Origin: Comamonas testosteroni
GTDB taxonomy: Bacteria; Pseudomonadota; Gammaproteobacteria; Burkholderiales; Burkholderiaceae_C
Reading direction: 5' to 3'
DNA length: 64,000 bases
NCBI GenBank assembly: GCA_008727115.1
Contig: CP044131.1
Coordinates: 3,348,001-3,412,000 of the forward strand
The position numbers were made by a program, and so were the translations under genes. The notes under the pieces were generated by a model. That model saw nothing but the letters and a program-made list of their open reading frames with translations, ran no database searches and was not told where the DNA came from. Positions 6,376-47,428 of this stretch are shown piece after piece; the first letter of the stretch is position 1, and each line of letters starts with the position of its first letter.

Positions 6376-7308
6376 ATGAGCAAGCACCCGAGTCAGCGCT
6401 TTCTTCCCACGCTGCGCCATTGGCGCGACTGGCAGTCTGTGCTTTATATGGTGGTGATGCCGCTCATCGTCTGGTGGCAGTGGACGCATGGCTTCAACTT
6501 CATTCTTTATAGCGTCGAGCTGTTTCTGACACTGGGCGTGGGCGTGATTCACCACAACCACACCCATGTGCGTATGTGGCGGGGCCGCTGGAGCAATCGT
6601 GCTACCGACTACTGGCTCACGCTGCTGCAGGGCCACCCCACTTTTGTGTTCTGGCCTGCCCATGTGGGCAACCACCATCGCTTTCGTCACGGGCCGCGCG
6701 ATATTGCGCGCACCTACCGGCCTGAGTTTGGTGGTGATACCAACCATCTCTGGGGCTATCTGGTTCACCCGATTCAAGCGGGCCTGAAGCTCTACCCTCT
6801 GTTCTTTCGCTGGCTGAACAACCTGCGCATTCACTGGCCCGGTGCGTTTCGCTACTGCATGGGGCAATACGCGCTGTGGCTAGGTAGCTGGGGATTTTTT
6901 CTGTGGCTGGACTGGCAGAAAGCGCTGCTCTTCATCATCGTCCCCCAGCTGCATGGCCTGCACTGGCTGCTGGCCACCAACTATCTGCAGCACGCCCATG
7001 CCGACGGCAGGCTGCTGACCAGAGCGCAGCGCAATACCCCAGGTATCGAGCTGAACTACGCGCGCAACTTCGAGGGGCTGGTCAATCCGCTTCTTTTTAA
7101 TATTGGCCTGCACACCGCGCACCATGAGTGCCCGCATGCGCACTGGTCCGAGCTAACAAACCTGCACGCTCAGACCTATCGCCAGCGAGTCACTCCCGCC
7201 CTCAATGAAGGCGGACTGTTGCCCTATATGGGGCGCGTGTTTGTATTGGGTCTGGTCTGGCCCGCGGCAAGAACCAAGCCGCAGATGCCTCCAGACGCTG
7301 TGAAATAA
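6376..7308 (+). CDS. Membrane fatty acid desaturase
   Basis: Diiron acyl-chain desaturase family, 310 residues. The three histidine boxes are present: HHNHTH near 58-63, HVGNHHRFRH near 95-104 and HTAHHECPH near 248-256. Hydrophobic segments lie between them. The ATG directly follows the TGA of the preceding gene with no spacer, so translational coupling is likely. It probably introduces a double bond into a lipid acyl chain. Together with the upstream sterol-desaturase-type protein and the downstream ketosynthase fusion it suggests an operon for a specialised lipid. Regiospecificity cannot be read from the sequence. Confidence 0.88.
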   Translation: MSKHPSQRFLPTLRHWRDWQSVLYMVVMPLIVWWQWTHGFNFILYSVELFLTLGVGVIHHNHTHVRMWRGRWSNRATDYWLTLLQGHPTFVFWPAHVGNHHRFRHGPRDIARTYRPEFGGDTNHLWGYLVHPIQAGLKLYPLFFRWLNNLRIHWPGAFRYCMGQYALWLGSWGFFLWLDWQKALLFIIVPQLHGLHWLLATNYLQHAHADGRLLTRAQRNTPGIELNYARNFEGLVNPLLFNIGLHTAHHECPHAHWSELTNLHAQTYRQRVTPALNEGGLLPYMGRVFVLGLVWPAARTKPQMPPDAVK

Positions 7309-7326
7309 GAAACCTGTTGAGAACAT

Positions 7327-9258
7327 ATGCCTGTTGCCTATTCAAACGTCTATCTGCAATCCGCTGGCATGTTTCTGCCCGGCGCTCCCGTGGACAACGC
7401 TGGGATGGATGCATATGTCGCGCCGCTGAATCGCATCTCCGAACGCATCAAGCGCCGCATCCTGGCCGAAAACGGCATCCAGAACCGCTACTACGCCATT
7501 GATGGCGAAGGCCAGACCGTCTTCAGCAACACGCAGATGGCGCAGAACGCCATCGAGCACACCTTGGCACTGGCGGGCAAGTCGCTGGCCGATGTGGGCT
7601 ATCTGTCCAGCGGCTCGTCAGGCGGCGATGCGCTGATGCCCGGCTTTGCCAGCATGATTCAGGGCGAGATGGCCGCGCCGCCCATGGAAACGCTGTCCGT
7701 GCATGGCGTCTGCGCCGCCAGCGTGGGCGCCATGCAGGCCGCCGCCATGGCGGTGGAAAGCGGCGCACATGATCTGGCCCTGTCCGTCGCCAGCGAAATG
7801 CCCTCGCGATTGTTCAAGCGCTCGCGCTTTGCCGCGCAGGGCTATGACACAGACTTTGATGCGCACTTCTTGCGCTGGATGTTGTCGGACGGCGCAGGCG
7901 CCGTGCTGCTGGGCGGCCCCAAGGCCTTGCCCCAGGCCAATGGCCTGCGCCTGAAACTCAAGTGGACGCACCAGCGCAGCTTTGCGGGCGACTACCCCGT
8001 CTGCATGCAACTGGGGTTGACAGCAGACCGCAAAAAAAGCCATCTGGACTTCCCCGCCTGGGGCGATGCCGAAGCCGCCGGAGCGCTATCGCTGCGCCAG
8101 GACATTCGTCTGCTGCCGCATCTGTTTGATGTCTGCATTCACGAATACGCCGACTTGGCCCACAAGGGCTGGGTACCCGAGCGCGGCATTGACCACTTTC
8201 TGTGCCATTACTCGTCTGAGCGCTTTATCCCCGTGGTGGACGATCTGCTCAACAAGGCCCAGCTGGCTATCCCGCGTGACCGCTGGTGGAGCAATCTGGC
8301 CTGGCGCGGCAACACGGGCGCGGCATCCATCTTCATCATGCTGTCCGAGTTCCTGCAAAAAGAAGGTCAACGCCTTAAAGCGGGTGACACCGTGCTGTGC
8401 TTTATCCCCGAATCGGGCCGCTTTACCGCTGGCTACATGCTATGGGAAGTAGAGCTGGATGCGCCCACCCAGCAATCGTTAGCGGCACATTTCCCTCAAA
8501 AATCTAGCGCAACTGAAACCATCGCCAACGACGCCCTGCCCGATGTCTCCACCATCGCCGCACCGCACGACCCGGCCACTGCGCCCCAGCAGCTCGCTCC
8601 GCTGCTGACCGAGCTGGCCAGCATCTGGCAGGACTACCGCAGCAATGTCTGGCGCACGCCGCTGCTGCGCCGCATTCGCACTCGCCAACTGCAAACGCAG
8701 GACTATGTGCGCTGGATGAGCCACTGGATTCCCCAGGTGCGCGAAGGCAGCCTGTGGATGCGCGAAGGTGCGGCATCGCTGACCGGCGACTACGCAACCC
8801 TTGCCAGTCTGATCGACCTGCATGCAGGTGAAGAGCAAGACGACTTCAAGATTTTGCACAGCGACTATCTGACTGCGGGCGGCACCGAAACCGACATCAG
8901 CAAGCTGCGCCGCAACCCCGGTGGCGAGGCACTCAACGCCTATCTGCACAATCTGGCGGCCACGCCCAACCCGATTGGCCTACTGGGAGCCATCTACATC
9001 ATCGAAGGCACGGGCCAGCGCATCGTACCCAGCTTGCTGCCGCTGCTGCGCGCCGCCCTGCCCTTGCCGCCCGAGGCCTTCCGCTTTCTGGAATATCACG
9101 GCGCCAATGATGAACACCACCTGGAGCGCTGGCTGATGGCGGTGCAGATGGCGCTGGACCTGGACAGCGAAGGCTCGGCCCAGCAGGCCATACTGCAGAC
9201 GGCGCGCAATACAGCGGCCATGTATCTGATGCAGTTCCAGCATGTGCTGGCGGATTGA
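7327..9258 (+). CDS. Ketosynthase III (StlD/DarB-like) fused to a haem-oxygenase-like diiron domain
   Basis: A 643-residue two-domain protein. Residues about 1-380 form a thiolase-fold ketosynthase III with the full catalytic triad: Cys129 (VHGVCAAS), His294 (FLCHYSSE) and Asn329 (WRGNTGAAS). After a Thr/Ala/Pro linker (about 385-420), residues about 425-643 form an all-helical domain of the iron-containing redox enzyme (haem-oxygenase-2-like) type. It has candidate metal ligands in LHAGEEQDDF (about 498-507), IIEGTG (Glu560) and YHGANDEHH (590-598). Such diiron domains include the fatty-acid decarboxylase UndA and N-oxygenases. The fusion suggests that a freshly condensed acyl or beta-keto product is oxidised in the same polypeptide. 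The start at 7327 follows a GAGAACAT leader. Confidence 0.82.
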   Translation: MPVAYSNVYLQSAGMFLPGAPVDNAGMDAYVAPLNRISERIKRRILAENGIQNRYYAIDGEGQTVFSNTQMAQNAIEHTLALAGKSLADVGYLSSGSSGGDALMPGFASMIQGEMAAPPMETLSVHGVCAASVGAMQAAAMAVESGAHDLALSVASEMPSRLFKRSRFAAQGYDTDFDAHFLRWMLSDGAGAVLLGGPKALPQANGLRLKLKWTHQRSFAGDYPVCMQLGLTADRKKSHLDFPAWGDAEAAGALSLRQDIRLLPHLFDVCIHEYADLAHKGWVPERGIDHFLCHYSSERFIPVVDDLLNKAQLAIPRDRWWSNLAWRGNTGAASIFIMLSEFLQKEGQRLKAGDTVLCFIPESGRFTAGYMLWEVELDAPTQQSLAAHFPQKSSATETIANDALPDVSTIAAPHDPATAPQQLAPLLTELASIWQDYRSNVWRTPLLRRIRTRQLQTQDYVRWMSHWIPQVREGSLWMREGAASLTGDYATLASLIDLHAGEEQDDFKILHSDYLTAGGTETDISKLRRNPGGEALNAYLHNLAATPNPIGLLGAIYIIEGTGQRIVPSLLPLLRAALPLPPEAFRFLEYHGANDEHHLERWLMAVQMALDLDSEGSAQQAILQTARNTAAMYLMQFQHVLAD

Positions 9259-9281
9259 GACGACCCACGCAGGACAAGAAG

Positions 9282-10241
9282 ATGAAGAACGAGTTCAACG
9301 ACCATGTCTGGGACGAGAGAGACCCCAGCCCCTGGCTGGCCCTTTATCTCGACCAAAGCACCCCGCTGCCCGACGAGGTCAAAGCAGCCTGGCTGCGTGA
9401 CTGCAGCAGCGGCTCACGCCAGTTCTTTCTGCCTGCCATACGCCCATTGGCCCGGCTGTCGATGATCATCATCCAGGCGCTGAAGATTTTCTTGCCCAAG
9501 CGCTGGTCGCATTCCATGCTGTTGCACCGCTTGCTGGCCTTTGGCATGAAGAAGTTTCTTTCGCCCGAGGCCAACTGGCTCATCATGCGGCACTTCCACC
9601 TCGGCTCTCAGGTGCTGCAGTTTGTGGCTGCCAATGCACCCACCAAAGTCAGCACCGCGCCACTTACCCCGATGGAAATTGATGAGGTCAAGGACGAGCT
9701 GTTTCTCAAGCATGACCTCAATCTCTTCAACTTCGTCATCCGCCTGAACAAGGCGCTGCGCGAGAACAATCAGGAGCTGGTGCCCGTACCCGAGCCCGAC
9801 TTTTCAATGATTTGCGAGCCAGACTTGAAGCTGGAAGACATGCCGCGCGGACGCTTCAATGTGATCGACCTGCAAAGCGCCATCGAGATATACACACCGG
9901 TCTATCAGCTGCTGCTGACCGACAACGACTTCTGGCGCGCCAGCAACTCGCTGCAGCTCGATGAGACCATTGCCATTTACTGCGCCAAGATTCTGGCCTC
10001 TCCCGAGCATCTGGTGCTGCTCAACAACAAGCACCCGATGGTGCCGCTCTCCACGCTGTATGCAGCTTACCGTCTGGTGCTGCATGGACTGTCCACCGAA
10101 ATGCTTCACTCCCTGCTGACGCGCATGGCCCAGGGAGAACATCCTGTTCCCGCGCGCGAGCTGGCCAAGATGAAAAGCTCAGCCACGAGCAAGGTGGCCG
10201 ATGACAAAGAGGGCGAAACGCCCTCTTCACACCAGCCCTGA
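9282..10241 (+). CDS. Unknown protein encoded last in the lipid cluster
   Basis: I do not recognise this family. From the ATG at 9282 (AGGACAAG upstream) there are 319 residues. The protein is acidic at the N-terminus (DHVWDERDPSPW). An amphipathic/hydrophobic helix lies near 45-70 (RPLARLSMIIIQALKIFLPKRW), followed by LSPEANWLIMRHFHLGSQVLQF. A charged C-terminal tail holds many Lys and Ser. It lacks a signal peptide and is probably helical and membrane-associated. An in-frame start at 9255 overlaps the previous stop codon. Its tight position after the ketosynthase fusion suggests a role in the same pathway, for example as a helper or acyl-handling protein; this is inference only. Confidence 0.7.
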   Translation: MKNEFNDHVWDERDPSPWLALYLDQSTPLPDEVKAAWLRDCSSGSRQFFLPAIRPLARLSMIIIQALKIFLPKRWSHSMLLHRLLAFGMKKFLSPEANWLIMRHFHLGSQVLQFVAANAPTKVSTAPLTPMEIDEVKDELFLKHDLNLFNFVIRLNKALRENNQELVPVPEPDFSMICEPDLKLEDMPRGRFNVIDLQSAIEIYTPVYQLLLTDNDFWRASNSLQLDETIAIYCAKILASPEHLVLLNNKHPMVPLSTLYAAYRLVLHGLSTEMLHSLLTRMAQGEHPVPARELAKMKSSATSKVADDKEGETPSSHQP

Positions 10242-36555: not shown

Positions 36556-36630
36556 CTCCCCGTAGTTCAATGGATAGAACGGTCGCCTCCTAAGCGACAA
36601 ATACAGGTTCGATTCCTGTCGGGGGGACCA
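36556..36630 (+). tRNA. tRNA-Arg (anticodon CCT)
   Basis: A complete cloverleaf: acceptor CTCCCCG with CGGGGGG (one G-T pair), D arm GTTC/GAAC, anticodon arm GTCGC-CTCCTAA-GCGAC giving anticodon CCT, T arm ACAGG-TTCGATT-CCTGT, discriminator A and an encoded CCA. It reads the rare AGG codon. Its 3' end is the left end of the integrated element and is partly duplicated at 46172. Confidence 0.96.
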
Positions 36631-36669
36631 AATTCAAGGCCGCGAAGGTGCATAACCTTCCGGCCTTTT
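36616..36669. other. attL: left direct repeat of the integrated element
   Basis: It runs from CTGTCGGGGGG in the tRNA-Arg 3' end through the downstream terminator hairpin to CGGCCTTTT. It is nearly identical to 46172-46224 (one extra G and one C/T change). This is the expected footprint of tyrosine-integrase insertion into a tRNA gene; the tRNA remains whole on this side. Confidence 0.92.
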
Positions 36670-36672
36670 TCT
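36636..36672 (+). terminator. Intrinsic terminator of tRNA-Arg (part of attL)
   Basis: The outer stem AAGGCCG/CGGCCTT and inner GAAGG/CCTTC around TGCATAA are followed by TTTTTCTTTTT. It is duplicated in attR at 46191-46224. Confidence 0.85.
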
Positions 36673-36733
36673 TTTTCCCCTCGACAGAGGCAATTTTATT
36701 GTCCACCGTCGTTCACTGAAGTGCACGGCAATC

Positions 36734-36787
36734 CGGGGGTATCTGGGGGTACATCTGGGGGTATATTTTTCAAAACTGGGGGTACAT
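36734..36787 (+). repeat. Direct repeats TGGGGGTAcAT near attL (candidate integrase arm sites)
   Basis: Copies at 36734-36741 (CGGGGGTA), 36744-36754, 36756-36766 (TGGGGGTATAT) and 36777-36787, all in the same orientation. The identical word recurs at 46090-46100 and 46102-46112 beside attR. Confidence 0.75.
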
Positions 36788-37096
36788 CGCAAACAAGGGC
36801 ATAGCAGTACCACTAGCACCAGGCAGTGACACCCCCACCCCTCCAAAACCTGCGCACGCAAAAATTTCACTAGGCGCTCGGTTTCCGCTGGCATCGCGTT
36901 GAAGTTTTGCCCCACCCCTGCCCCATGGCAGCAAGCCCCCTCCCCCCATTTTTCCCGCATTTTGCGAGCGCACTGGGAGGCTCGGTCTTGAGCTATTCAG
37001 CTTTCAACAATTTCATCCCCCTGCCCTATTGATTCATTTCAGGAATGAATCACGAACGCCGCGCCGCGCACTTTCTTCGGGGTATCGTTCAAAAAT

Positions 37097-37215
37097 CTTG
37101 GGGACATTGGGGACAAATGCAAAAACAACACCTAACCCATTGTCATCATTAGACAAAACTGTCCCCAAAAAGTTTGGGGACAAACGGTTTTGGCTTGGGG
37201 ACATTGGGGACAAAT
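37097..37215. repeat. Iteron-like TTGGGGACA repeats, left cluster
   Basis: CTTGGGGACATTGGGGACAAAT occurs twice (from 37097 and from 37194), each itself a tandem of TTGGGGACA. Between them, GTCCCCAAA-AAG-TTTGGGGAC (37161-37181) forms an inverted pair. The same words lie in the opposite sense at 44588-44715, near the other end of the element. Confidence 0.8.
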
Positions 37216-37563
37216 CGCCAGTTTTTGGGGGCGGAGCGCATTAAAAGCTACTCATGAGGCGCATTCATGCAGTAGAGCAAGCGCGGCACCTGTTTTTCTT
37301 GGTGCGGCTTTCTCGCTGGCTTTCGCGCACTCACACCGAATTATTTATTCCATCGCGGAATTAAATCCCCCTGCGCCCCACACGGCGCGCCCGTCCTCGC
37401 ACTTAGCTGCATTGCCGTCTGGCTGCTGGGTCAGAATCGCAAAAGCTGGCCATGCCATGCAGACCCATAGACAGGCCCGGCCACAGCCGGGCAATGCAAC
37501 GAGGGGGAGCCTGTTGCTACGCACAGGCACCCAGGCCATGCCGTGCCTGCCGCAGATAACAAA

Positions 37564-37590
37564 AGGCCCAGGGCTATGAACCTTGGGCCT
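37564..37590 (-). terminator. Intrinsic terminator of the primase operon
   Basis: On the minus strand AGGCCCA and TGGGCCT pair across a short GG/CC-extended loop, followed by TTTTG. It lies 28 bp beyond the primase stop codon. Confidence 0.75.
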
Positions 37591-37618
37591 ATGTCTATGT
37601 GCTGGCGCTGGGGGCTGG

Positions 37619-40573
37619 CTATATGTCCAGCTCCATGATGGCGGGGCTGATGCGATAGCACCAGGTAGGCCCCATGCCAGGCAGGCGCGGCTTGGCATCG
37701 ACCTCGCGGCCTTTGTCGGGCTTGAGGCAACCATGCTGCAGCAGCACCTTGCACACCGCCTTGTGGTCAAAGCCCCGGCATATCTCGGTGCGGAACACTT
37801 CGGGCAGCACAAAGTACTCAATGCGGGTCTGCTCGCCATCAATGGCCGTCAGCTCGTCGTATATCTCTTTATCGGCGCGCGGCGTGTAGACCGTCTTCTG
37901 CACCTTGATGGGCTGCCCCTCTTCATCAATCAGACGCCGGAATCCGGCCCGCATCAGCGTCTTGGCATTGTGGTCATCCATAGCTCTGTGCCACCAGGTA
38001 AAGCGCCCTTCTCCGTGCGCCTCTAGGAAGCCGCGCACCTGGCGCAGCATGGCCTTGACCTCACCATTTCCAGCACCACCACGGGCCTGCAACCAAGCAT
38101 CAAAGCAAGCCTTTGCCGCGTCCTCGCTCTCGCCCTCATCCCAGCCCGTCAAGCCCGCCTCAGTGGCCAGTGCACCCGCCACCCCAACCAGAGCAAAGCG
38201 CGCGGCCACGCGGGCCACCTGACCACTGGCACCGCTGGGCACCCAGGCATAGGAAAGAACCGCAGTCGCATCACGTACACGCCGAGCCAAGGTATCCGAA
38301 TGCTGGGCAGCCCACTGCAGGAAGGCATGCCCTACAGCGCCATGACAAAGCCCCGCCTCACGCGCCAGATGCGAAGAGAAGGCCGCCCCATCACCCAAGC
38401 TGTGCAGGCATTCAAACGCCCCCATACCTGCGCCAGCATCAGCGGGAATATCAGCCATGCGCACCTCTTGCCCAGTGCGCGTGCGCTTGCCGCCTTCGGC
38501 CATGTGGTCAGCCAGGCCCAGCTCGCCCGCACTCAGAAACAGCAAGCGCCAGGAAAGGCGTGGGCGCGCAGCCACATTGCGTGTGGCGCGCGCCTTACTT
38601 TGCTCATTGGCCAGCATGTAGGCACACTCGCCCGCCACCTTGCCCTCAACCTGCGCCAGCTCGTCCAGGATCAGCAGGCTATCGCAGTGCTGTGCAGCAA
38701 TGACCTCCAGCGCGTTATCGGTCGTGCGCCAGCGCTGCATGTAACTGGGACCACCGTACACACTGGCGGCCAGGCGCAGCGCCGTGGTCTTACCGCTGGA
38801 GCTATCACCCCGCAAGTGAAACCCGCCAGACTCCATACCCGCAGGGCGCAGCAGCGGCCCCGCAAAGGCACAGGACACAGCAAACACCAGGCGGCTATTG
38901 CCAGCGCACAGGCGACCTATGCGGTCTGTCCAGTCCTGCACCTCACGCTTGATGCGGAACGTGTTCTCCATCTGGTTTTCAGACTGAAACACGATGCGCT
39001 CGGCATCATCGCCAATGGTTTCATGCGGTAGCACAAAGGCGCGACCATGCCAGCCTATGCGGTCTGTGCAGCTCGCAAACTCTTCGGGCTTGCGTGTCTG
39101 TATGTACTCGGTCAGCCGGTTGCGCGCTGCAGGCGCTGTGGCAATGCGCAGACCCATATTCAGCAGCGCGGCGCGGTACTCGCCACCATCACCGCTCAAC
39201 ATGCGCGCGGGCATGGCCCACTGCTTGGGCACGCCCAGTGGGTCAGCAAAGGTCAGCAGATAACCCCACCCCGCGCCCTCTTGGTTGCGTGTCAGCGCCT
39301 CCACATGCAACGCAGAGCACAGCCACAGCGCGCGGGCCGGGTTGCCATCCTTGTCACGGCCATGGAACCACACGCCGCCTTCATCAAGGGTGAATGGGTC
39401 ATCCCAGCCAGGCGCATCATCAGGATCGTTTGCCGGGCCTTTGCGCTTGCCGCCGCGCCCGCCGCCATTGCCACCGCCTGAACCCGCACCACCAGCACCA
39501 GAAAAAGGCAGGCCAGCGCTACCCCCTTGACCAGCGCCAGCATCATCGCGGCCCGTCCTGGCATGCAATGCATCAATGGCTTGCTGTACACACGCCTGCA
39601 CGGCCTCCAGGCCGCACGCTTGGTGCATATCGTTGAAGTCTTTGCCGCCATCCGGCAGATCAATAGGGAACACAGCCACACCGCCCACAGCGCGCGCCAC
39701 GGCTTCGGCTTTGTCGCGGCCAGGGTTGCGGCCTGTACGGGCTTGCGTGTCCGTATCGTCATCACCGCACACCACCACCAGCGCGCCCGCATGCAAGGCC
39801 TGCAGCGCCTTTGCCACATGCATCAGATTGCCCGCATCAAACGCCACCACCACCGGCCAGCCCGTGGCCATATGCAAGCTGGCTGCAGTGGCATAGCCCT
39901 CGGCCACCAGCACCACAGCAGCGCCTGCCAGCTCACCTAGCACATGCCACAAGCCCGACTTGCGCCCACCCTTGCCCAGAAACTTATCTGTGCCCTTGGC
40001 TGGCTTGACCGGCGCAATGCGTTGCACATTCCACAGCCTGCCATCACCATCGCGCAGCGGCACCAACAGCCAGCCATCAGCCCCGTAGCGCACGCCAAAG
40101 CCTTGCACACCCTTGCGCTCCAGGTAAGCACTGGAGCCGGTTTCGCTGGCGCTGGCCCAAAGTGCTGCAGCCTCACCCGCTGCTGCCTCTTGCGTGGCCT
40201 GTATCGCGGCATCCTCGGCTTGCTGGCGCTGCCTGCGTTCATCGTCCTGGCGCTGACGCTCTGCAGCGCTCACGGGCTTGGATTCTTGCCCCTGGCGCGG
40301 CAGCTTGAAGCCGTGCTGCTTGGCCAGGTAGAGCAAGGTTGACACACCCACACCGCCCCCGGCCTTGATGCTGCGCCAGGTGGCACCCACAGCGCCAACA
40401 TCAAAGCCGCCGCTGGCCGCGCTCCAGTCGCTAAAGAGCTGCAGGCCCGTGTCGTCGGGATACTCGCTCTTGATAGCCATGCCCACACGCGCCCATTCAT
40501 CGCGCGGTAGATTGGCCGGGACAAAGCTCAAGGCATTGCGCAGCAGCTCGGGGGTGATTGTGGTTTGAGACAT
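37619..40573 (-). CDS. Primase-helicase (PriCT-2, Toprim, DUF927) of the integrated element
   Basis: A 984-residue replication protein. PriCT-2-like domain at about 10-90 (NALSFVPANLPRDEWARVGM); charged coiled linker 100-140; Toprim at about 215-315 with Glu225 (VAEGYATA) and Asp271-273 (CGDDDTD); Gly-rich hinge 345-376; DUF927 ATPase domain about 395-720 with Walker A GDSSSGKTT (589-597) and Walker B-like LLILDELAQ; and a C-terminal helical part. The layout parallels P4 alpha (primase plus helicase). It is last in the minus-strand operon and three bases after the preceding gene, and it has its own terminator. It should let the excised element replicate autonomously. Confidence 0.9.
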   Translation of the reverse strand: MSQTTITPELLRNALSFVPANLPRDEWARVGMAIKSEYPDDTGLQLFSDWSAASGGFDVGAVGATWRSIKAGGGVGVSTLLYLAKQHGFKLPRQGQESKPVSAAERQRQDDERRQRQQAEDAAIQATQEAAAGEAAALWASASETGSSAYLERKGVQGFGVRYGADGWLLVPLRDGDGRLWNVQRIAPVKPAKGTDKFLGKGGRKSGLWHVLGELAGAAVVLVAEGYATAASLHMATGWPVVVAFDAGNLMHVAKALQALHAGALVVVCGDDDTDTQARTGRNPGRDKAEAVARAVGGVAVFPIDLPDGGKDFNDMHQACGLEAVQACVQQAIDALHARTGRDDAGAGQGGSAGLPFSGAGGAGSGGGNGGGRGGKRKGPANDPDDAPGWDDPFTLDEGGVWFHGRDKDGNPARALWLCSALHVEALTRNQEGAGWGYLLTFADPLGVPKQWAMPARMLSGDGGEYRAALLNMGLRIATAPAARNRLTEYIQTRKPEEFASCTDRIGWHGRAFVLPHETIGDDAERIVFQSENQMENTFRIKREVQDWTDRIGRLCAGNSRLVFAVSCAFAGPLLRPAGMESGGFHLRGDSSSGKTTALRLAASVYGGPSYMQRWRTTDNALEVIAAQHCDSLLILDELAQVEGKVAGECAYMLANEQSKARATRNVAARPRLSWRLLFLSAGELGLADHMAEGGKRTRTGQEVRMADIPADAGAGMGAFECLHSLGDGAAFSSHLAREAGLCHGAVGHAFLQWAAQHSDTLARRVRDATAVLSYAWVPSGASGQVARVAARFALVGVAGALATEAGLTGWDEGESEDAAKACFDAWLQARGGAGNGEVKAMLRQVRGFLEAHGEGRFTWWHRAMDDHNAKTLMRAGFRRLIDEEGQPIKVQKTVYTPRADKEIYDELTAIDGEQTRIEYFVLPEVFRTEICRGFDHKAVCKVLLQHGCLKPDKGREVDAKPRLPGMGPTWCYRISPAIMELDI

Positions 40574-40576
40574 TAC

Positions 40577-40957
40577 TTAATCCAACTCAGAGGCAGCACC
40601 AGGAATAGCCTGGCCTGCATCATTGGCCGCTGGCTGGCGCACAGGGCACAAGCATTGGCAGTTCGTGAGGCGGGCTAGAGCCGCTGTATTTCTGTCGATT
40701 GCAGCGCTCAAGGTTTGCGCCGCATCCAAAGTCGCATGCGCTTGCAGAGCTGCTGCACTCAGGGCACAGACACCGTGAAAGAAGTCAGCGCCTTGCACCT
40801 CAACACCATCCGCAGCGTTCACCACGTTGCAGCAAGCCGCCGCCATATCGGCACCGTATTCAAGGACTGCACGATCAATGTCATTCAATCCATCAGACTC
40901 AGTGGCCTGAGAGAGCAAGACTTTCTCACCCATGGAAAGTTTGCGAGATTTGCTCAT
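40577..40957 (-). CDS. Element protein of unknown function between AlpA and primase
   Basis: A 126-residue protein with a basic N-terminus (MSKSRKLSMGEKVLLSQATE), a long Ala-rich helical middle (LSAAALQAHATLDAAQTLSAAIDRN) and a CQCLCP cysteine cluster near the C-terminus. It overlaps the AlpA stop by four bases (ATGA) and is followed three bases later by the primase gene. That coupling suggests a replication or regulatory accessory. No family recognised. Confidence 0.7.
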   Translation of the reverse strand: MSKSRKLSMGEKVLLSQATESDGLNDIDRAVLEYGADMAAACCNVVNAADGVEVQGADFFHGVCALSAAALQAHATLDAAQTLSAAIDRNTAALARLTNCQCLCPVRQPAANDAGQAIPGAASELD

Positions 40958-41175
40958 GCTTGGGCACCTCCGATACGCTCTTGCACCCAGGTCAGCACAG
41001 CCGACTCAGGCCATGCCACCATGCGCGTCCCCAAGCGAACAGCCGCAGGAAATTTCCGCTCTTTCATCAACCGATAAATGGTGCTTTTCTTCATGCCAGT
41101 CAGGCCCTCAACACCAGCCAGGCGCAACAGGCGATCACGGGGCACCGCAGGGCGGGCAGAATGAACAACTTGCAT
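40954..41175 (-). CDS. alpA: AlpA-family excisionase/transcription regulator
   Basis: A small winged helix-turn-helix regulator of the AlpA/MerR-like class, which controls integrase and satellite excision. Its 73 residues contain the diagnostic GMKKSTIYRLMKERKFPAAVRLG followed by VAWPESAVLTWVQERI. The ATG at 41175 is preceded by AAAGG with eight bases spacing; a GTG one codon earlier is less likely. It is the first of the three-gene block alpA-orf-primase. Confidence 0.93.
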   Translation of the reverse strand: MQVVHSARPAVPRDRLLRLAGVEGLTGMKKSTIYRLMKERKFPAAVRLGTRMVAWPESAVLTWVQERIGGAQA

Positions 41176-41384
41176 CACACGAACCTTTCAACATCACTGC
41201 CACCAGCGCCAGCGCACCGAATGGAATGCTTTAAAAACGCGGGAGACATTGAGGGAAATGCTCTTTGATTCGACTACTAACAAGCGCTAACAGCCTTCCA
41301 GGAATTGCCCGCACGAATGAAGGTCGGCTCATGTAGTCCCCGCCCTTGTCAGCGTTGTTAGTCGGGCCGTTAGCACCAAGGCCA

Positions 41385-42431
41385 TTACCCGGCAGCACGC
41401 CGCCCAGAAAATGGATTACTGGCAGCAGCGTTATCTGCCATCCGCTGCTTTTCACGCGCCATAACCGCATCTTTCAGCTTTGTCATTTCCTGCACGATGG
41501 ACGAGCGACCAATACCAAGGCACACACCTACCCAGTCACCGGCCTGGCTGATACCCATGCCGCCCGCCTCCAATGCATCCAACCGGGCGCGCACCACCTG
41601 GCGCATATCAAATGTCCACTTCTGAGGCGTCAGAACCACCTTGCGGCCTTGCTGCAATGCCGCCGACTGCACAGCATGGGCTGCATCCGTCAGCAGCGCC
41701 TCAAGCTCTTGCACGGTCTTGGGTCTGCTCGCAATGGCTGGTGCTGCATCAGCCACCGCATCCGGTAGTGCCACAGCAGCCGCAGCATGGCCCCAACCCC
41801 AAAGCTCATGAGCTACCGATACAGGCACTGCAAGGCGGCCCAGAGACCGGACGTACCGTTCACACCGCTCCTTCCAATCCCCAAGGTTGATGTAGTAGTC
41901 CTCGCGGTATTTCTGCTCCCAAAGGATCGGCAACTCATTGGCCTTCGCCACCCTCTTCATCGCCTTGCAATACGCCACCCAGCCAGCACGGTAAAAAGGC
42001 TCTGCATTCGCTACATACCCTGGCCAGGAGTCGCGCCATGCTTCAGCAATCTCCCTCACCGTGCACATGGAGTAGGTGTGAGCGTATGAAAACGGCAAGT
42101 CCCCCCAAGCATCAACAGCCGCAGGGTTCAACCTGTCACCAAGAGATAGTGGATATGCATAGCCTTCATGGTTGAGCAAATACAGCACTTGTCGCCGGTA
42201 CTTAGAGTCAGCCTCATCCCATTGAATCAATGGACTGAAAACGGCATACAGCGACTTATCCCTCGGCCATTCTTTTTTGAAAGCCATCCAATGCAGCGCC
42301 TCATCAAGGCGCAAGAGTCGATCATTCACACCAGCGCCGCAACGCTGTAGGCCGTAAGGGCCAACGGCCTGAAACCCTTCTTCCGGCTCAATCTCTGCAC
42401 TACCCGCGTCGTGTTCAGCGCCAGCACCCAT
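41385..42431 (-). CDS. Unknown 348-residue element protein
   Basis: GAGG lies seven bases before the ATG at 42431. The N-terminal half contains aromatic-rich segments (ALHWMAFKKEWPRD, FSYAHTYSMCTVREIAEAW, YREDYYINLGDWKERC). The Ala-rich middle has KTVQELEALLTDAAHAVQ. The C-terminus (LDALEAGGMGISQAGDWVGV and GIGRSSIVQEMTKLKDAV) looks like a DNA-binding helix-turn-helix. I do not recognise a family. It could be a regulator or the element's accessory or interference protein; no phage structural signature is visible. It lies upstream of alpA on the same strand, with a 209-bp gap. Confidence 0.7.
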   Translation of the reverse strand: MGAGAEHDAGSAEIEPEEGFQAVGPYGLQRCGAGVNDRLLRLDEALHWMAFKKEWPRDKSLYAVFSPLIQWDEADSKYRRQVLYLLNHEGYAYPLSLGDRLNPAAVDAWGDLPFSYAHTYSMCTVREIAEAWRDSWPGYVANAEPFYRAGWVAYCKAMKRVAKANELPILWEQKYREDYYINLGDWKERCERYVRSLGRLAVPVSVAHELWGWGHAAAAVALPDAVADAAPAIASRPKTVQELEALLTDAAHAVQSAALQQGRKVVLTPQKWTFDMRQVVRARLDALEAGGMGISQAGDWVGVCLGIGRSSIVQEMTKLKDAVMAREKQRMADNAAASNPFSGRRAAG

Positions 42432-42496
42432 TTGCACACCTCTTCAAAAAGGAAAGCGCCAGCCCGTGCACACGCATGCACAGTGCTGGCGCTGGT

Positions 42497-42871
42497 TTAT
42501 TGCTGCGCTTGAGCCATCCTCAGCCGCCGCGCAGCAGCATCAATCACGCACTGCAGCCCGCCCAGCAAACTAGCCTGATGACTCAGAAAGAACAGCAAGT
42601 TTGAGCATTCACCAGCATCCTGAAAACTGCCAATGTGACCCGAGCCAGGCCCGTCATTCACCACCAGACATCCAATACCCTCGGTTAAATGCGCCAGGTA
42701 TGAGGCCAGATCCCCTGCCATGTCAGAACTTCCATTAGTCAGCCAATGCAGCTCATGCAGCGTCAAATTCGGTACGGCACGCTCCATCAACACTTCCAAC
42801 AGGGTACGCAGGCCAAAAGCGGGCAGACGCTCTGCCTCATTGGCCTGCTGCACAGGTGCTTTCTTCGTCAT
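42497..42871 (-). CDS. Small unknown element protein A
   Basis: A 124-residue protein beginning MTKKAPVQQANEAERLPAFG. It contains LTLHELHWLTNGSSDMAGDL and a hydrophobic C-terminal helix (LLFFLSHQASLLGGLQCVIDAA). It is third in a run of overlapping genes (43412 to 42497), each overlapping the next by four bases (ATGA), so it is made as one translation unit. Function unknown. Confidence 0.65.
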   Translation of the reverse strand: MTKKAPVQQANEAERLPAFGLRTLLEVLMERAVPNLTLHELHWLTNGSSDMAGDLASYLAHLTEGIGCLVVNDGPGSGHIGSFQDAGECSNLLFFLSHQASLLGGLQCVIDAAARRLRMAQAQQ

Positions 42872-43137
42872 TGCACACCCCCTTGCATGGCACCAGAGAC
42901 ATGCGCATCAGCACAAGCCAACAACTCAGCCGCCAAAGCCCGCGCCTGCTCAGGCGTGAACGCCATAAAGGTCTGATGAGAGACAAGATCGGTAGAGCAG
43001 GACAAACCCAGCTCCACCAGGCCCGTGCTGCGGGCCGCGTTGACGGTCAAATAACGCCCGCCTGATAGGTCAGTTTCAGAACTGAGCACGCAGCGCGAAT
43101 GCTCATCCATGCGCCGGGTAAAGGTGGTTTTGCTCAT
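42868..43137 (-). CDS. Small unknown element protein B
   Basis: An 89-residue protein, MSKTTFTRRMDEHSRCVLSS. It has a strand-rich centre (GGRYLTVNAARSTGLVELGL) and a C-terminal helix (TPEQARALAAELLACADAHV) like those of small phage-encoded proteins that bind DNA or other regulators. It overlaps its neighbours by four bases at both ends. Function unknown. Confidence 0.65.
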   Translation of the reverse strand: MSKTTFTRRMDEHSRCVLSSETDLSGGRYLTVNAARSTGLVELGLSCSTDLVSHQTFMAFTPEQARALAAELLACADAHVSGAMQGGVQ

Positions 43138-43412
43138 GCTGCAGCCCCTGCCTTTTCAAAGCCTTGACCACAGTGCCAAACGCCCACGCTGCCAATGATT
43201 TCACCGCCCGTAGCCTGATCGGCCAGGCAGCCCACGCCCTGCGCCAGCGCCTGTGCAGCATCGACCAGGCGGGCACGCTCCCAATCCTCCTCACAGGTCT
43301 GCGCAACCAGCAGCAGGCCATTGAGTGCCGCCATCTGGGTTGCGATGCTCTGCATGAGCATCTGCAGTTGCACCAAGTTGTAGCCGTCACGGCCTTTGCT
43401 TTGCATCGTCAT
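43134..43412 (-). CDS. Small unknown element protein C
   Basis: A 92-residue, mostly helical protein (YNLVQLQMLMQSIATQMAAL, ERARLVDAAQALAQGVGC) ending in a Gly-rich tail. It overlaps the next gene by four bases and begins three bases after protein D ends. It resembles small coiled adaptor proteins of satellites only in size. Function unknown. Confidence 0.65.
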   Translation of the reverse strand: MTMQSKGRDGYNLVQLQMLMQSIATQMAALNGLLLVAQTCEEDWERARLVDAAQALAQGVGCLADQATGGEIIGSVGVWHCGQGFEKAGAAA

Positions 43413-43415
43413 GGC

Positions 43416-43631
43416 TCAGCCCTCCATGCTCAAGGACAAGCCACGCAGCGCGGCCAGGGCCTGTACGGCTTTGCGGCGTGCACCGGACACATTGGCTTGC
43501 GGCTGGCGCAGGTAGAACACGGCCATGCTCAGCGCGTTATGCGCATCAGCATGCAGCTGGATAGGGTCAGGGGTGCCCGTAGTGGGCAAGGTGGACGCAG
43601 CTTTGTGGCTGGCCAAGGTAATAGCGGTCAT
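43416..43631 (-). CDS. Small unknown element protein D, first of the minus-strand operon
   Basis: A 71-residue protein from the ATG at 43631 with AGGAA upstream, beginning MTAITLASHKAASTLPTTGT. It has a helical end (ALSMAVFYLRQPQANVSGARRK). The frame stays open upstream to a GTG at 43865 (149 residues), but that part coincides with a structured RNA candidate and has unusual composition, so the short form is preferred. It opens the D-C-B-A gene run. Confidence 0.6.
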   Translation of the reverse strand: MTAITLASHKAASTLPTTGTPDPIQLHADAHNALSMAVFYLRQPQANVSGARRKAVQALAALRGLSLSMEG

Positions 43632-43690
43632 GGTCTGGATTCCTGCGTGAATCAAGCGAACCACCACTTGCGTTTTCAAGCGCAGCAGGT

Positions 43691-43755
43691 GGACGGGATG
43701 TTGAAAACACGCACGCAGGCGTGCGGCCATCCTTACGGGTAGGCCCATCCCGCCC
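43691..43755 (-). ncRNA. Candidate C4-type antisense RNA (phage/satellite immunity RNA)
   Basis: On the minus strand a clean three-way junction can be drawn. Closing stem GGGCGGGATG (43755-43746) pairs with CATCCCGTCC (43700-43691), with one G-T pair. Inside it are hairpin GGCC..GGCC with the loop CTACCCGTAAGGAT, and hairpin GCACGC-CT-GCGTGC. It lies in the leader of the operon that leads to alpA and the primase, the same place as the CI/C4 RNA of P4 and P1. The fold is seen in the sequence; the family assignment is from memory. Confidence 0.6.
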
Positions 43756-43865
43756 ATAACCATGGGGGAGCGATGCAGGCGCACCAGTCCCCAGAATTTG
43801 GGCGTGACAAAACCCCGCTTATCGGTGGGGGTTGCAACCTCTGCGTGTTTGGTGTTTTCAAGCAC

Positions 43866-43983
43866 CGGGCCTCTCGGCTTGCCGCGATTGTGCCATGAAG
43901 TGCGGCAGGGGCGTCAAGCCTTGATTTGGCTTTTTTGTTCAGTTGTCCACTTTGTCCATGGATTTTCTATAGGAGTAGAACGC
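43866..43983. promoter_or_regulatory. Divergent control region of the element
   Basis: Short region between the leader of the minus-strand operon and the plus-strand gene at 43984. It contains TGTTCAGTTGTCCA (43936-43949) and then TTGTCCA, part of a larger inverted pair (see findings), plus a T-rich tract. It probably holds opposed promoters and repressor operators; -10/-35 boxes are not clear. Confidence 0.5.
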
Positions 43984-44155
43984 ATGGACTCGCAAGCACC
44001 CGCGCCCGTGCTTATGCGCCTCTGCATGCCTGGCGCGCGCTTAAAGATCAATGAAGTGGACGCCAGGGAATGCTGCAGCCTCAACCCTGAAAAGGGTCAA
44101 AAGCATATTGTTGGTGAACTCAGTGGAAATGCTGGACACCCTGGACAACTGAACA
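43936..44155. repeat. Perfect 14-bp inverted repeat pair flanking the plus-strand gene start
   Basis: TGTTCAGTTGTCCA at 43936-43949 and its exact reverse complement TGGACAACTGAACA at 44142-44155. Each continues into a second TGTCCA half-site three bases further. The first copy lies upstream of the gene at 43984 and the second within it. This looks like distal operators for a looping repressor. Confidence 0.7.
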
Positions 44156-44220
44156 CTACATGCAGCAAAAGGCTCACCATTCCGGCCACTGCATCACAAG
44201 CTAGGTGCACCATCACCTAA
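43984..44220 (+). CDS. Possible small divergent element gene
   Basis: AGGAG eight bases before an ATG gives a 78-residue frame (MDSQAPAPVLMRLCMPGARL then KINEVDARECC). It has several cysteines and a Thr/Ala-rich end. It is the only plus-strand candidate in the element and faces away from the replication operon, where satellites keep their repressor. However, no helix-turn-helix is recognisable, and an operator-like repeat lies inside it, so it may instead be non-coding. Confidence 0.4.
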   Translation: MDSQAPAPVLMRLCMPGARLKINEVDARECCSLNPEKGQKHIVGELSGNAGHPGQLNTTCSKRLTIPATASQARCTIT

Positions 44221-44587
44221 GCCACTGTACGGCAGCGAATCGCGCCTCCAGACGTACAGGCAATGCAGCGCAATTCAGGCGCGCCGCCGTTTAAAAACAA
44301 GCGCCTATTACACCAGAAACCGCAGCCGGTACGGGGCACCAGGGGAATGCCTTTCGCGTGCTTTTCCCGCACTGTCCACCCACATGCACCACCGTGCAGA
44401 CCAGCGCCAGCACAGGCCAGCCAGGCACAGCCGCGCGCCCCTTGGCCCAAGCCCCATCACCCAGGCTTTGCCATGCCATTTTCTGGAGCCATGCGCGCCC
44501 CCAAAAGCTAGATGCAACAGAAGCAAGCAAGAGGCTAAAAACAAAGAGAAAAGAGTAAATATTTCATATCAAGAAAAAACTCTCTAT

Positions 44588-44715
44588 ATGTCCCCAACTT
44601 GACCCCACTTTGACCCCAAAATGTCCCCAAACTATTTGATAGCGCTAAATCCTTTATTCATCAGTGTTTCAAGGACATAGCATTTTCAGAAAACGCCGTG
44701 TCCCCATGTCCCCAC
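44588..44715. repeat. Iteron-like TGTCCCCAA repeats, right cluster
   Basis: TGTCCCCAACTTGACCCCAC, TTTGACCCCAAAATGTCCCC, AAAC and, 60 bp on, GTGTCCCCATGTCCCCACGG. These are the same nonamers as the 37.1-kb cluster in the opposite sense, lying beside an AT-rich stretch. In a circular form the two clusters would be about 2 kb apart, with the integrase and att between them. Confidence 0.75.
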
Positions 44716-44785
44716 GGAAAATCATCTCCTACGCGAGTTGATTTGCCTTGCGGGCCGCGCCGCAGCCTGGCTTACAGGCACAAAA

Positions 44786-44807
44786 AAGCCGCCTCGGTGG
44801 GCGGCTT
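44786..44807 (-). terminator. Intrinsic terminator of the integrase gene
   Basis: On the minus strand AAGCCGCC and GGCGGCTT close a six-base loop, followed by TTTTTTG. It lies 57 bp beyond the integrase stop codon. Confidence 0.88.
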
Positions 44808-44863
44808 GTGAACCAGGTGCAGGCGTGTGGCTGGCGCTGCCGGTCGGGCCTGACTTGGCCAGA

Positions 44864-46069
44864 CTACCCAGCGCGCTGGCGCAGGTGCAGTACCTTGCCG
44901 CTTTTGCAGCCCTCCAGGTAATCGGCCCACCACTGCAGTAGCTTGGTGCGCTCGGCCATGTAGGTGCTGCGGTGATATGCGGCCCGCACTTCGTTGCGCT
45001 CCTTGTGGGCCAACTGGCGCTCAATCACATCAGGCCGCCACCCGGTTTCATTGGCCACAGTAGAGAACAGCGCCCGAAAGCCGTGGGCCGTGGCCAGGTT
45101 TTTGTAGCCCATACGGGCCATGGCTGAGTTGAAGGTGTTCTCGCTCAGCGGTTTGCTGGGATAGAAGGGGCTGGGAAAGACCAGTTCACGCCCGCCGCTC
45201 AGGGCCTGCATGGACTGCAGCAGCTCCAGAGCCTGGCTGGACAAGGGAATGCGGTGCTCTTGCCGCATCTTCATGCGCTCGGCAGGGATGGTCCACATGG
45301 CTGCATCCATATCCACTTCATCCCAGCGTGCGCCGCGTATCTCGCCGGGTCGTGTGGCCGTCAGCATCAGCAGACGCAGTGCGTGCACGGTGTGGAGGTC
45401 ACCGTCGTAGGCGTCCAGTTGCGCCAGGAAGGCAGGCAAGTCTTTCGCATCAAGCGCGGCACGGTGCTTGACTTCACGCGGCTTGAGGATTTCGGCGGGC
45501 ATCAGATCCAGCATAGGGTTGCTGTCCACACGGCCATGGATAACAGCCCAGCGAAAAATCGCCTTGACCCGCTGCAGCACGCGCCCGGCTTGCTCGCCTG
45601 CACCGCGCGCCTCAATCGCCTTCACTGCATTCATCACCTCCAGCGGCTTGATGCTGGCCAGCGGGCGCGCGCCCATGGTCTTGAGAATGTCAGTCTCCAG
45701 CGATGCATGAATGCGCTCTCGCGTCTGCTGCTCCCACTTGGCCGACTGGTGCTCCATCCACTCCAGGGCCACGGCCCGGAAGGTATTGACAGACTCATGC
45801 ACGGCTTTGGTCTTGGCGGCCTTGCGCTGCTCGGCGGGATCATCCCCCGACTGGATGGCCTGGCGTGCTTGGCTGGCCAGCTCTCGCGCATCCTTCAGGC
45901 TCACTGCTGGATAGACCCCCAGCGCCAGCAGCTTTTCTTTTCCGGCAATGCGGTACTTCAAGCGCCAGTAGCGGCCACCGGCAGCGGTCAGTTCCAGGTA
46001 CAGGCCACCGCCGTCAAAGTGTTTGCCGGGTTCGGACAGGGTTCGCAGCTTGGCGTCGGTCAGCTTCAT
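44864..46069 (-). CDS. int: P4-type tyrosine recombinase (integrase)
   Basis: A 401-residue site-specific integrase of the DUF4102 arm-binding class. The N-terminal MKLTDAKLRTLSEPGKHFDG and YWRLKYRIAGKEKLLALG form the DUF4102 domain. Residues 95-190 are the SAM-like core-binding domain. The catalytic domain has Arg240 (TATRPGE), His329-Arg332 (HGFR), His355 (LAHKE) and the nucleophile Tyr365 (RAAYHR). It lies at the right end, 100 bp inside attR, reading inward, as in P4-like elements. It should mediate insertion into tRNA-Arg(CCT). Confidence 0.97.
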   Translation of the reverse strand: MKLTDAKLRTLSEPGKHFDGGGLYLELTAAGGRYWRLKYRIAGKEKLLALGVYPAVSLKDARELASQARQAIQSGDDPAEQRKAAKTKAVHESVNTFRAVALEWMEHQSAKWEQQTRERIHASLETDILKTMGARPLASIKPLEVMNAVKAIEARGAGEQAGRVLQRVKAIFRWAVIHGRVDSNPMLDLMPAEILKPREVKHRAALDAKDLPAFLAQLDAYDGDLHTVHALRLLMLTATRPGEIRGARWDEVDMDAAMWTIPAERMKMRQEHRIPLSSQALELLQSMQALSGGRELVFPSPFYPSKPLSENTFNSAMARMGYKNLATAHGFRALFSTVANETGWRPDVIERQLAHKERNEVRAAYHRSTYMAERTKLLQWWADYLEGCKSGKVLHLRQRAG

Positions 46070-46112
46070 GGGGGGTATCCTCGACAGTCTGGGGGTACAT
46101 TTGGGGGTACAT
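46069..46112 (+). repeat. Direct TGGGGGTACAT repeats near attR (candidate integrase arm sites)
   Basis: TGGGGGGTATCC at 46069-46080 and two exact TGGGGGTACAT copies at 46090-46100 and 46102-46112, overlapping the integrase start and its upstream region. They have the same word and orientation as the attL cluster. A role in integrase self-regulation is plausible. Confidence 0.75.
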
Positions 46113-46171
46113 TTCTAAATCACATCCAGACTATCAAGCATTCATGCGGGTTTCAAGCCTAAGTGTGAGTT

Positions 46172-46224
46172 CTGTCGGGGGACCAAATTCAAGGCTGCGA
46201 AGGTGCATAACCTTCCGGCCTTTT
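46172..46224. other. attR: right direct repeat of the integrated element
   Basis: CTGTCGGGGGACCAAATTCAAGG-TGCGAAGG..CGGCCTTTT, nearly the same as attL with one G fewer and a T for C. It carries only the tRNA 3' tail and the terminator hairpin. Chromosomal sequence resumes after it, 14 bp before the GGDEF gene's stop codon. Confidence 0.92.
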
Positions 46225-46237
46225 CTGTTGGCGAGTG

Positions 46238-47293
46238 CTAAAAGCCAGTGTGGCGTGATTCATCCGCCCCGGCGCTTCTCTCGGATGCATGCTTGCGAAC
46301 CGATTTGATCTGATACATGGCTGCATCGGCTTTCTGCAGTGCATCATCCACATCGGTCTCATCTGGGTTCAGGCCGACCAAGCCCACGCTTGCACCCGGG
46401 TAAGCAATGCGGCGGCCATCGGCTAATTCAACACAGGTAACGGACACGCTAGACAAGCGTCTCTGCAGCTCTTGGAGTGTGGGGGAGCAATCCTGCGTCA
46501 ATTGAGGGCCCACGCCCACCATGACAAATTCGTCGCCACCAAACCGTGCCAGCATGTCGCTTCCGCGCAAGGCAGTACGCAATTTTTCGGCCTGCGAGCG
46601 CATCAATGCATCTCCTGCTTCATGCCCAAAATGGTCGTTGATCTGCTTGAAGTCATCCAGGTCAATAAATCCGACCAGAACCCACTCACGCGTACGCCGG
46701 CAGTGTGCAATGACGCGTTGCAACTCCTCTGTGACACAGCGCCGGTTAGGCAAGCCCGTCAACGCATCCAGCATGACCAGCGATGACAGTTCCTCATTGG
46801 CTTTCTGCAAGGATCTCAGCAACTGTTCGCGCTCTGCAAATCCTCCAATGATCGTGGCAAACAGTCGCAATGTGTCTTTGGCCTCATCGCTCAGAGACTG
46901 CGACTTTGTGCTGGCTGCACACAGCGTTCCATAGAGTGATCCATCCGCAAATCTGACGGGGGTGCTGACATAGGTCTTAATCCCCAGCTTTTGGGCAGCG
47001 CCCGAGTCAGCCCAACATTCCGTCACGTTGTTCACGTAATTGCGACCTTCATCCAGCGCTCTTTTGCACAAGGTGTCGGCCCAGGGAACTTGCAGCCCTT
47101 CGGGAATATTCATCTTGCCCTTGTTGAGTGAATACAGAACGCTCTGGACGCCGCGCGACTCATCCACGGTCGTGAGGTAGGCCGACTCTAATTCGGTCAC
47201 CTCGATCAATATCTCCAGCAAGGGTTGCGTGAATGCGCACAGCGTCTGGGAAGAAGTCACAGAGCTGGAGAGGCGCTGAACTATCGATGGCAT
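46238..47293 (-). CDS. GAF-GGDEF diguanylate cyclase-like protein
   Basis: A 351-residue cytosolic protein. An N-terminal GAF sensor domain (about 15-165; YVSTPVRFADGSLYGTLCAAS) and a short coiled linker lead to a GGDEF domain with the intact active motif ARFGGDEFVMVG, preceded by DALTGLPNRR and DLDDFKQINDHFGHEAGD. It should make cyclic di-GMP. The I-site RxxD five residues before GGDEF is present as RGSD. The ATG at 47293 matches the start of the GAF helix. It is next to attR but belongs to the chromosome. Confidence 0.9.
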   Translation of the reverse strand: MPSIVQRLSSSVTSSQTLCAFTQPLLEILIEVTELESAYLTTVDESRGVQSVLYSLNKGKMNIPEGLQVPWADTLCKRALDEGRNYVNNVTECWADSGAAQKLGIKTYVSTPVRFADGSLYGTLCAASTKSQSLSDEAKDTLRLFATIIGGFAEREQLLRSLQKANEELSSLVMLDALTGLPNRRCVTEELQRVIAHCRRTREWVLVGFIDLDDFKQINDHFGHEAGDALMRSQAEKLRTALRGSDMLARFGGDEFVMVGVGPQLTQDCSPTLQELQRRLSSVSVTCVELADGRRIAYPGASVGLVGLNPDETDVDDALQKADAAMYQIKSVRKHASERSAGADESRHTGF

Positions 47294-47428
47294 CGGGCAA
47301 CCTTTGATGAAGTAGAGGTGGCGGAGAGAAAAACACAGGCGAGGTCTGCATGTCTCGTGAGTACAGAGTCTGAGTGTGCGTTGCACATCATGCAAAGTTT
47401 TGCAGGCCTTGCCAGGCGCCACTCCATG

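Follow-up and report, generated by a model that had tools for sequence, protein, structure and literature searches.

The window analyzed here is a stretch of 64,000 nucleotides from Comamonas testosteroni (contig CP044131.1, positions 3,348,001 to 3,412,000), within which a 9.56-kb element, with all its main genes on the minus strand, adjoins tRNA-Arg(CCT) (Table 1). Ten open reading frames (ORFs) of the element were scanned against Pfam and PHROGs. Pfam families were found in three, namely, a tyrosine integrase, an AlpA-type regulator, and a PriCT_2-Toprim_3-DUF927 protein (here, the replicase), which bears out the integrase, AlpA, and primase-helicase named in a preliminary description of the locus. 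The other seven gave no Pfam match at an E value of ≤1 and at best weak PHROGs matches (E of 0.06 or more), and no structural-gene family was recognized in any of the ten, in agreement with the same description, which had seen no head, tail, portal, or lysis genes. A putative cos site matching those of phages related to Burkholderia phage BgVeeders33 lies 3' of the replicase. We propose that the element is quite probably a cos-type phage satellite, which reads as a Burkholderiales kind similar in layout to phage-inducible chromosomal islands (PICIs).

Repeat search and ARAGORN confirmed the direct repeats of about 53 bp described around the element at tRNA-Arg(CCT): two 48-bp copies (36622-36669 and 46177-46224; spacing, 9,555 bp) are 98% alike with one mismatch and extend to about 53 bp once a one-base gap is allowed. 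The empty attachment (att) site was sought at the 13 best right-flank loci, one of them from this genome itself. In three related genomes (L213, L214, and L216 in G430, G412, and G399), an uninterrupted tRNA-Arg(CCT) stands between the left flank and a GGDEF gene (about 4 kb), which supports insertion at this tRNA; the tRNA and right flank are also present in L215. The right flank (46225-47425) was matched in 35 of 41 genomes of the genus, with many matches weak and elsewhere. Judged by these comparisons, the element is inserted at tRNA-Arg(CCT). Several IMG/VR loci with a distant replicase (31 to 36% identical; L109-L111, L114, L116, L117, and L129) have two integrase-like genes near tRNA-Arg(CCT), so this tRNA is used by distant elements too.

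Of the 399 host-family genomes sampled, 46 have replicase homologues (E ≤ 1e-60). Such homologues also occur at 51 IMG/VR loci, and GTDB genomes yielded at least 434 relatives among at least 590 pattern matches, of which the best 80 loci were kept. The gene order int, variable region, AlpA, replicase recurs across these relatives. The integrase of 24 loci is 64% or more identical to this one. The replicase-side tRNA is tRNA-Arg(CCT) in eight of them and tRNA-Leu(CAA) in seven; a Val, Thr, Leu(CAG), or Arg(TCT) tRNA, or none within the stretch, is found at the rest. Two close relatives, L132 (a Comamonas sp. metagenome-assembled genome) and L133 (C. testosteroni JL40), have both ends in common with the element and differ in their middles.

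Comparison of the DNA after the replicase stop with 94 related regions revealed three conserved noncoding blocks: the iterons, a second block, and the arm-type repeats with att DNA. A 16-mer of the second block occurs in 36 IMG/VR contigs, one being the JL40 satellite, nine holding an extended motif, and 26 holding the 16-mer alone. In all nine extended-motif contigs, homologues of the BgVeeders33 large terminase subunit (TerL; 53 to 63%) and of the gene preceding it (31 to 54%) lie downstream, within about 105 bp of the motif in eight and at 0.5 kb in L299; terminase relatives were present in three of the 26 others (L290, L300, and L307). In BgVeeders33, the motif is located between the holin and the gene preceding TerL, and three of the nine contigs end 8 to 12 nt before the core, as expected of linear phage ends. 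The second block is thereby a candidate cos site, which the preliminary description had missed, and a packaging-site match within the element strengthens its reading as a phage satellite.

A 62-column matrix for this site was built from 10 phage sites only, with a cutoff score of 10. The element scored 55.9. The maximum was −5.2 for 200 shuffles of it and −16.5 for about 134 kb from elsewhere in this genome, searched on both strands. Scores above 10 were obtained for 24 of 96 replicase loci (among them L081, a second copy of JL40), while 96 Markov-shuffled loci reached at most 3.4 (mean, −17.8). All 24 sites lie on the replicase strand, 21 of them 200 to 1,623 bp past the replicase stop and three (L187, L198, and L199) far upstream of that stop. 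An alternative hypothesis, which we consider improbable, is that the element is a plasmid that has integrated, or another kind of integrative element, and that its cos-like DNA is a fossil left by recombination with a phage and no longer packaged. DUF927 proteins are common on plasmids, and closed circles of relatives, suggested by identical contig ends of 126 to 140 bp in L061, L093, L096, and L174, need no phage; these circles and the empty sites also count in favor of a satellite. Against the plasmid reading, cos sits in the same orientation, and mostly in the same place, in elements that have diverged, and Pfam gave no relaxase family for the ten window ORFs or for 70 proteins of the family. 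In L174, from the isolate Limnohabitans planktonicus, replicase, att, and int come in that order, which an excised or tandem form would show. On the chromosome of this isolate, tRNA-Arg(CCT) is followed by a 117-bp stretch of that att side with 98% identity, and nothing else in the 3.1-kb chromosomal locus matched. L144 (7,880 bp) shows the replicase-att-int order too, with ends that do not overlap, and its attB was not found in its own draft genome.

Other cos types were seen by eye among the satellites: L146 and L140 share CGTGCGG-type cores with phages L341 and L340 (TerL about 40% identical to the query), and L177, L211, and L174 have a further type in common. These sequence likenesses suggest that cos types may be exchanged.

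The helper is most likely a BgVeeders33-type phage, as far as the shared cos motif indicates. BgVeeders33 (OK665841.1) resembles the element in this motif and differs from it in being of the helper type, a 32.9-kb phage with capsid, portal, and protease genes and a contractile Mu-like tail. A TerL protein search made without the motif gave 28 matches in 25 of the 399 genomes, or 26 places without L323, whose sequence is identical to that of the query phage, and L350, which holds the second piece of a single gene; 13 of these 26 prophage places scored above 10, and the site is upstream of TerL in all 13. Within the genus, TerL was found in 11 of 53 genomes, giving 12 new places, two of them with the site (L351, 55.8; L352, 44.1). 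The window cos agrees with each of the two at 46 of 62 bases and was aligned to the L351 prophage by blastn over 91 bp (77%).

A second noncoding segment (Table 1) also links the element to these phages. It matches the G409 prophage over 186 bp with 72% identity (E = 2e-18) and over a further 34 bp with 85% identity (E = 0.001), and the G409 copy lies directly 3' of a 920-amino-acid (aa) ORF, named by eye as replication type, about 1.7 to 2 kb before cos. Two further sequences with the cos motif carry it, namely, phage contig L296 and G213, in the latter close to TerL. A search of 299 family genomes matched this element and G213 and no others, L132 and L133 are without the segment, and among the sequences searched it is common only to the element and phages of the same cos type. 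The phage collection had no match to the window leader or to the phage copy of the segment, and the phage copy had no Rfam match at an E value of ≤1. Folding z scores were 0.47 for the window copy and −1.61 for the phage copy, and so no structure is claimed.

Several points weigh against a BgVeeders33-type cos satellite. The case is made by sequence comparison; the motif was first seen in satellites and then used to find the first phage set, the TerL-based set being the independent check; and the small terminase subunit (TerS) was named by its position before TerL only. At 72 of the 96 loci there is no site of this cos type, although some are cut off after the replicase and some may have other cos types. 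When 4.14 Mb of this genome was searched for a second cos copy (at most one mismatch), three matches were obtained, one of which is the element; the other two score −16.3 or less and have no cos context, and a reversed-pattern control gave two matches. Satellite and TerL prophage occur together in four genomes (G009, G087, G213, and G313), where about 2.9 would be expected (46 × 25/399), so co-occurrence is not enriched. Motif-pattern and TerL searches found no BgVeeders33-type helper prophage in this genome, which would also suit a decayed remnant that has lost its movement. We regard such decay as very improbable: the main frames are open, both att copies and cos are intact, and close relatives carry other cargo.

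The preliminary description had called the element a P4-like satellite, of which the phage satellite and possibly the P4-like lifestyle stand, while P4 membership does not. The element may work like a P4 satellite, and the expected integrase and AlpA are both present. The other markers were taken from the profile list in PMC8628076. Psu (PF07455), Delta (PF04606), and epsilon/Ash (PF10554) were matched neither in the ten ORFs (E ≤ 1) nor in the 70 family proteins (E ≤ 1e-4), and the Pox_D5 (PF03288) alpha primase-helicase was not found, with PriCT_2-Toprim_3-DUF927 in its place. No name similar to Sid was among the Pfam and PHROGs matches, the published profile being a custom one with which no search was made. 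A P2-type cos matrix, from seven cos-like sites picked by position after the portal gene and by what we take to be the P2 cos, gave −2.8 for the element and −7.3 for the JL40 element, compared to a mean of −3.9 and a maximum of 6.9 for 50 shuffles. P4 membership is therefore not supported, since neither a P2-type cos nor Psu, Delta, Ash, or a Pox_D5-type alpha was found. A P2-like helper was an attractive candidate, since this genome holds a P2-like prophage (with capsid and a portal relative that has 89% identity to the JL40 portal), and in JL40 (L133, L279-L281) a closely related satellite and a P2-like prophage with GPA, Ogr/Delta, and P2 capsid stand in tandem at one tRNA-Arg(CCT), the prophage lying between tRNA and satellite. 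It was rejected because the P2-type cos is absent from the element. Together with the missing markers, genome counts (P2 capsid in 19 and replicase in 46 of 399, overlapping only in this genome, with about 2.2 expected) make a true P4-type satellite with a P2-like helper distinctly improbable.

With int, a cargo spot, the RNA, small genes, alpA, the replicase, iterons, and cos in this order, the element comes closer in layout to Gram-negative PICIs. According to PMC6092414, these (e.g., EcCICFT073) likewise have int, an AlpA regulator, a primase-replicase with origin, and a helper-type cos, with neither virion genes nor a TerS gene; EcCICFT073, without TerS, carries functional copies of its helper's cos. 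The same gene order is found here, with the origin inferred from the iterons; structural and lysis genes are missing from this element, although some relatives have a tape-measure gene; and the cos match would supply the helper cos that PICIs have where they lack TerS. Unlike those PICIs, the element belongs to Burkholderiales and has a DUF927 replicase, a leader RNA, and a BgVeeders33-type cos. An att site unused by prophages, stated for Gram-positive PICIs, is not seen, as the JL40 P2-like prophage sits at the same tRNA-Arg(CCT). P4-like satellites (PMC8628076) are alike in size, int, alpA, a primase-helicase, an RNA leader, and a defense cargo spot beside int (here, in relatives of the element), and apart from the missing P4 markers they differ in having cos between int and psu, whereas it follows the replicase here. 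Phage-inducible chromosomal minimalist islands (PICMIs; PMC10803314) share int, alpA, a primase core, and the lack of a recognized capsid-remodeling gene but differ in their site beside fis (tRNA-Arg(CCT) here), a size of about 6 kb, virulent helpers, and Vibrionaceae hosts. DUF927 is listed among PICI primase families, and a cos region common to satellite and helper is reported, in PMC10111431; the principle of a satellite carrying helper cos is thus already known (PMC6092414, PMC10111431). The lineage, helper type, and leader RNA appear new within the literature searched, where no report of satellites of this kind from Burkholderiales or Comamonas was found, most subscription journals and bioRxiv being outside its scope.

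We speculate that the helper's lytic cycle would switch the satellite on, with AlpA and the leader RNA as the likely switch. Integrase and AlpA would then excise it, the replicase would copy it from the iterons into concatemers, and the helper terminase would cut at the satellite cos and fill helper particles with satellite DNA. The simplest packaging mode would be a trimer of 28.7 kb, 87% of the 32.9-kb helper genome, in a full-size head, because no capsid-shrinking gene is recognizable; the packaging range of phage λ underlies this idea. There is perhaps an even chance that the element represents a widespread, undescribed Burkholderiales class of cos satellites. Its members, united by a DUF927 replicase and a leader RNA of their own, would exchange cos sites, with the result that the cos type of a satellite follows that of its helper; in this copy, a second phage segment would have been exchanged as well. 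If true, helper range would be readable from sequence, and identifying the helper is, in our judgment, the usual slow step for satellites. A noncoding cos site names the phage group, and the satellite-helper pair would therefore be directly testable.

The C4-like RNA of the preliminary description was dropped, since Rfam gave no C4 match at the gathering threshold over the whole window or at an E value of ≤5 in 43400-44900; a different conserved structured RNA lies instead in the first half of a 149-aa ORF (43416-43865). Relatives of this frame were gathered by tblastn and blastn, a regular-expression search having matched the window only, and the DNA of the upstream half was aligned for 33 sequences. 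Up to column 133, 97.1% of cells are paired and 16 of 28 pairs have both-side changes, a count that omits the helices past that column. Covariation was 0.436 compared to 0.142 when shuffled, with none of 500 shuffles as high; sliding the partners left 33 to 50% of cells paired, a control that favors the structure because the structure was derived from the same alignment. The best Rfam match, sRNA-Xcc1 (RF02221), spans the whole model and is alike in overall fold but falls below threshold (35.8 bits versus 53; E = 4e-4). Because the first half is RNA and stops interrupt the aligned frames of at least 15 relatives, the 149-aa ORF is probably not one gene, and the real gene there is likely the 71-aa frame. 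Its conserved start codon, preceded in most sequences by a purine-rich stretch, follows the RNA, which makes it likely that the leader RNA controls the downstream operon; it could be a switch. The int-alpA RNA (RF02996) was found in L089, L148, and L137 of 12 loci searched and had no match in window positions 40500-43700 at an E value of ≤1.

The spot between int and this RNA bears on the anti-phage role suggested earlier, as three close relatives carry known systems there: JL40 has IetA/IetS (PADLOC), L132 a helicase and DUF2290 pair, and Comamonas terrae L134 a PARIS-like AriA/AriB pair. PADLOC was run on 10 proteins (these six and four others, which had no match) of 404 ORFs from 50 elements. 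In the window, this spot is occupied by the shared segment, iterons, and small ORFs that have no relatives among the 404 ORFs; no gene or defense system is recognizable there.

Phage morphogenesis genes occur in some relatives (A4 members) between AlpA and the replicase. L137 encodes a tape-measure protein (6644-9940; TMP_3, 6e-55), the 70 family proteins gave tape-measure matches and one head-maturation-protease match in PHROGs, and L175 and L187 have long TMP-like ORFs, judged by eye. Such genes could interfere with helper tails. A 10-kb Pseudomonas record (L032, PP003922.1) has an integrase, AlpA-type regulators, and a DUF927-type primase. It resembles a capsid-carrying satellite or a joined contig in that a capsid gene is present as well.

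Besides the mostly RNA 149-aa ORF, a 79-aa ORF (41231-41470) is in doubt; it is probably spurious, because it lies partly within the span of the 350-aa ORF and gave neither a Pfam nor a PHROGs match at an E value of ≤1. The predicted structure of the 350-aa protein reached a predicted local distance difference test (pLDDT) score of 55 only, and its fold was not resolved by the model. The two iteron-like clusters are real, with 10 copies of TGGGGACA/TGTCCCCA in the element versus one in the other 54 kb of the window, and cluster 1 is the probable replication origin. P4, too, has a two-cluster iteron layout, which is a further likeness to P4-like satellites.

Table 1. Features of the element and its insertion site (window positions)
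Feature	Position	Strand	Basis
tRNA-Arg(CCT), integration target	36556..36630	+	ARAGORN, Rfam tRNA
attL-side direct repeat: tRNA 3' end and terminator-like hairpin	36617..36669		Repeat; empty site in three relatives
Arm-type repeats (CTGGGGGTACA), att replicase side	36735..36790		D3 repeat family; conserved in relatives
Putative cos site matching BgVeeders33-type phages; core GCGTGCGCAGGTTT at 36846-36859	36829..36890	-	Phage matrix, motif search
Iteron cluster 1, 6 copies of TGGGGACA/TGTCCCCA, probable origin	37089..37218 (copies 37099-37212)		Block conserved in 23-28 matches among 94 regions
Replicase, 984 aa, PriCT_2-Toprim_3-DUF927	37619..40573	-	Pfam
126-aa ORF	40577..40957	-	ORF list, no family from Pfam/PHROGs
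AlpA-type regulator, 74 aa	40954..41178	-	Pfam 4e-18
350-aa protein, related ORFs in 12 loci	41385..42437	-	Clustering, alignment, model pLDDT 55
124-aa ORF, related ORFs in 3 loci including this element	42497..42871	-	ORF clustering
89-aa ORF, related ORFs in 4 loci including this element	42868..43137	-	ORF clustering
92-aa ORF, found in JL40 and L196 too	43134..43412	-	Locus comparison
Likely 71-aa gene 3' of structured RNA	43416..43631	-	Conserved C-terminal half, conserved start codon
Structured leader RNA, sRNA-Xcc1-type fold	43665..43755 (about)	-	33-sequence alignment, covariation, subthreshold Rfam
Noncoding segment shared with same-cos phages	43996..44301	-	blastn, genome searches
Iteron cluster 2, 4 copies	44589..44714		Copy count
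Tyrosine integrase, 401 aa, Arm-DNA-bind_3	44864..46069	-	Pfam
Arm-type repeats, att integrase side	46088..46119		D3 repeat family
attR-side direct repeat	46172..46224		Repeat search

A 63-bp stretch past the replicase (37472-37533), also conserved in L132 and L133, is 83% identical to sequence from around the G409 prophage. Elsewhere in this genome, at about 2.65 to 2.67 Mb, a second N-terminal replicase-like stretch (L002 and L074; 43% identical) lies near several integrase-like pieces and would belong to another element or prophage.

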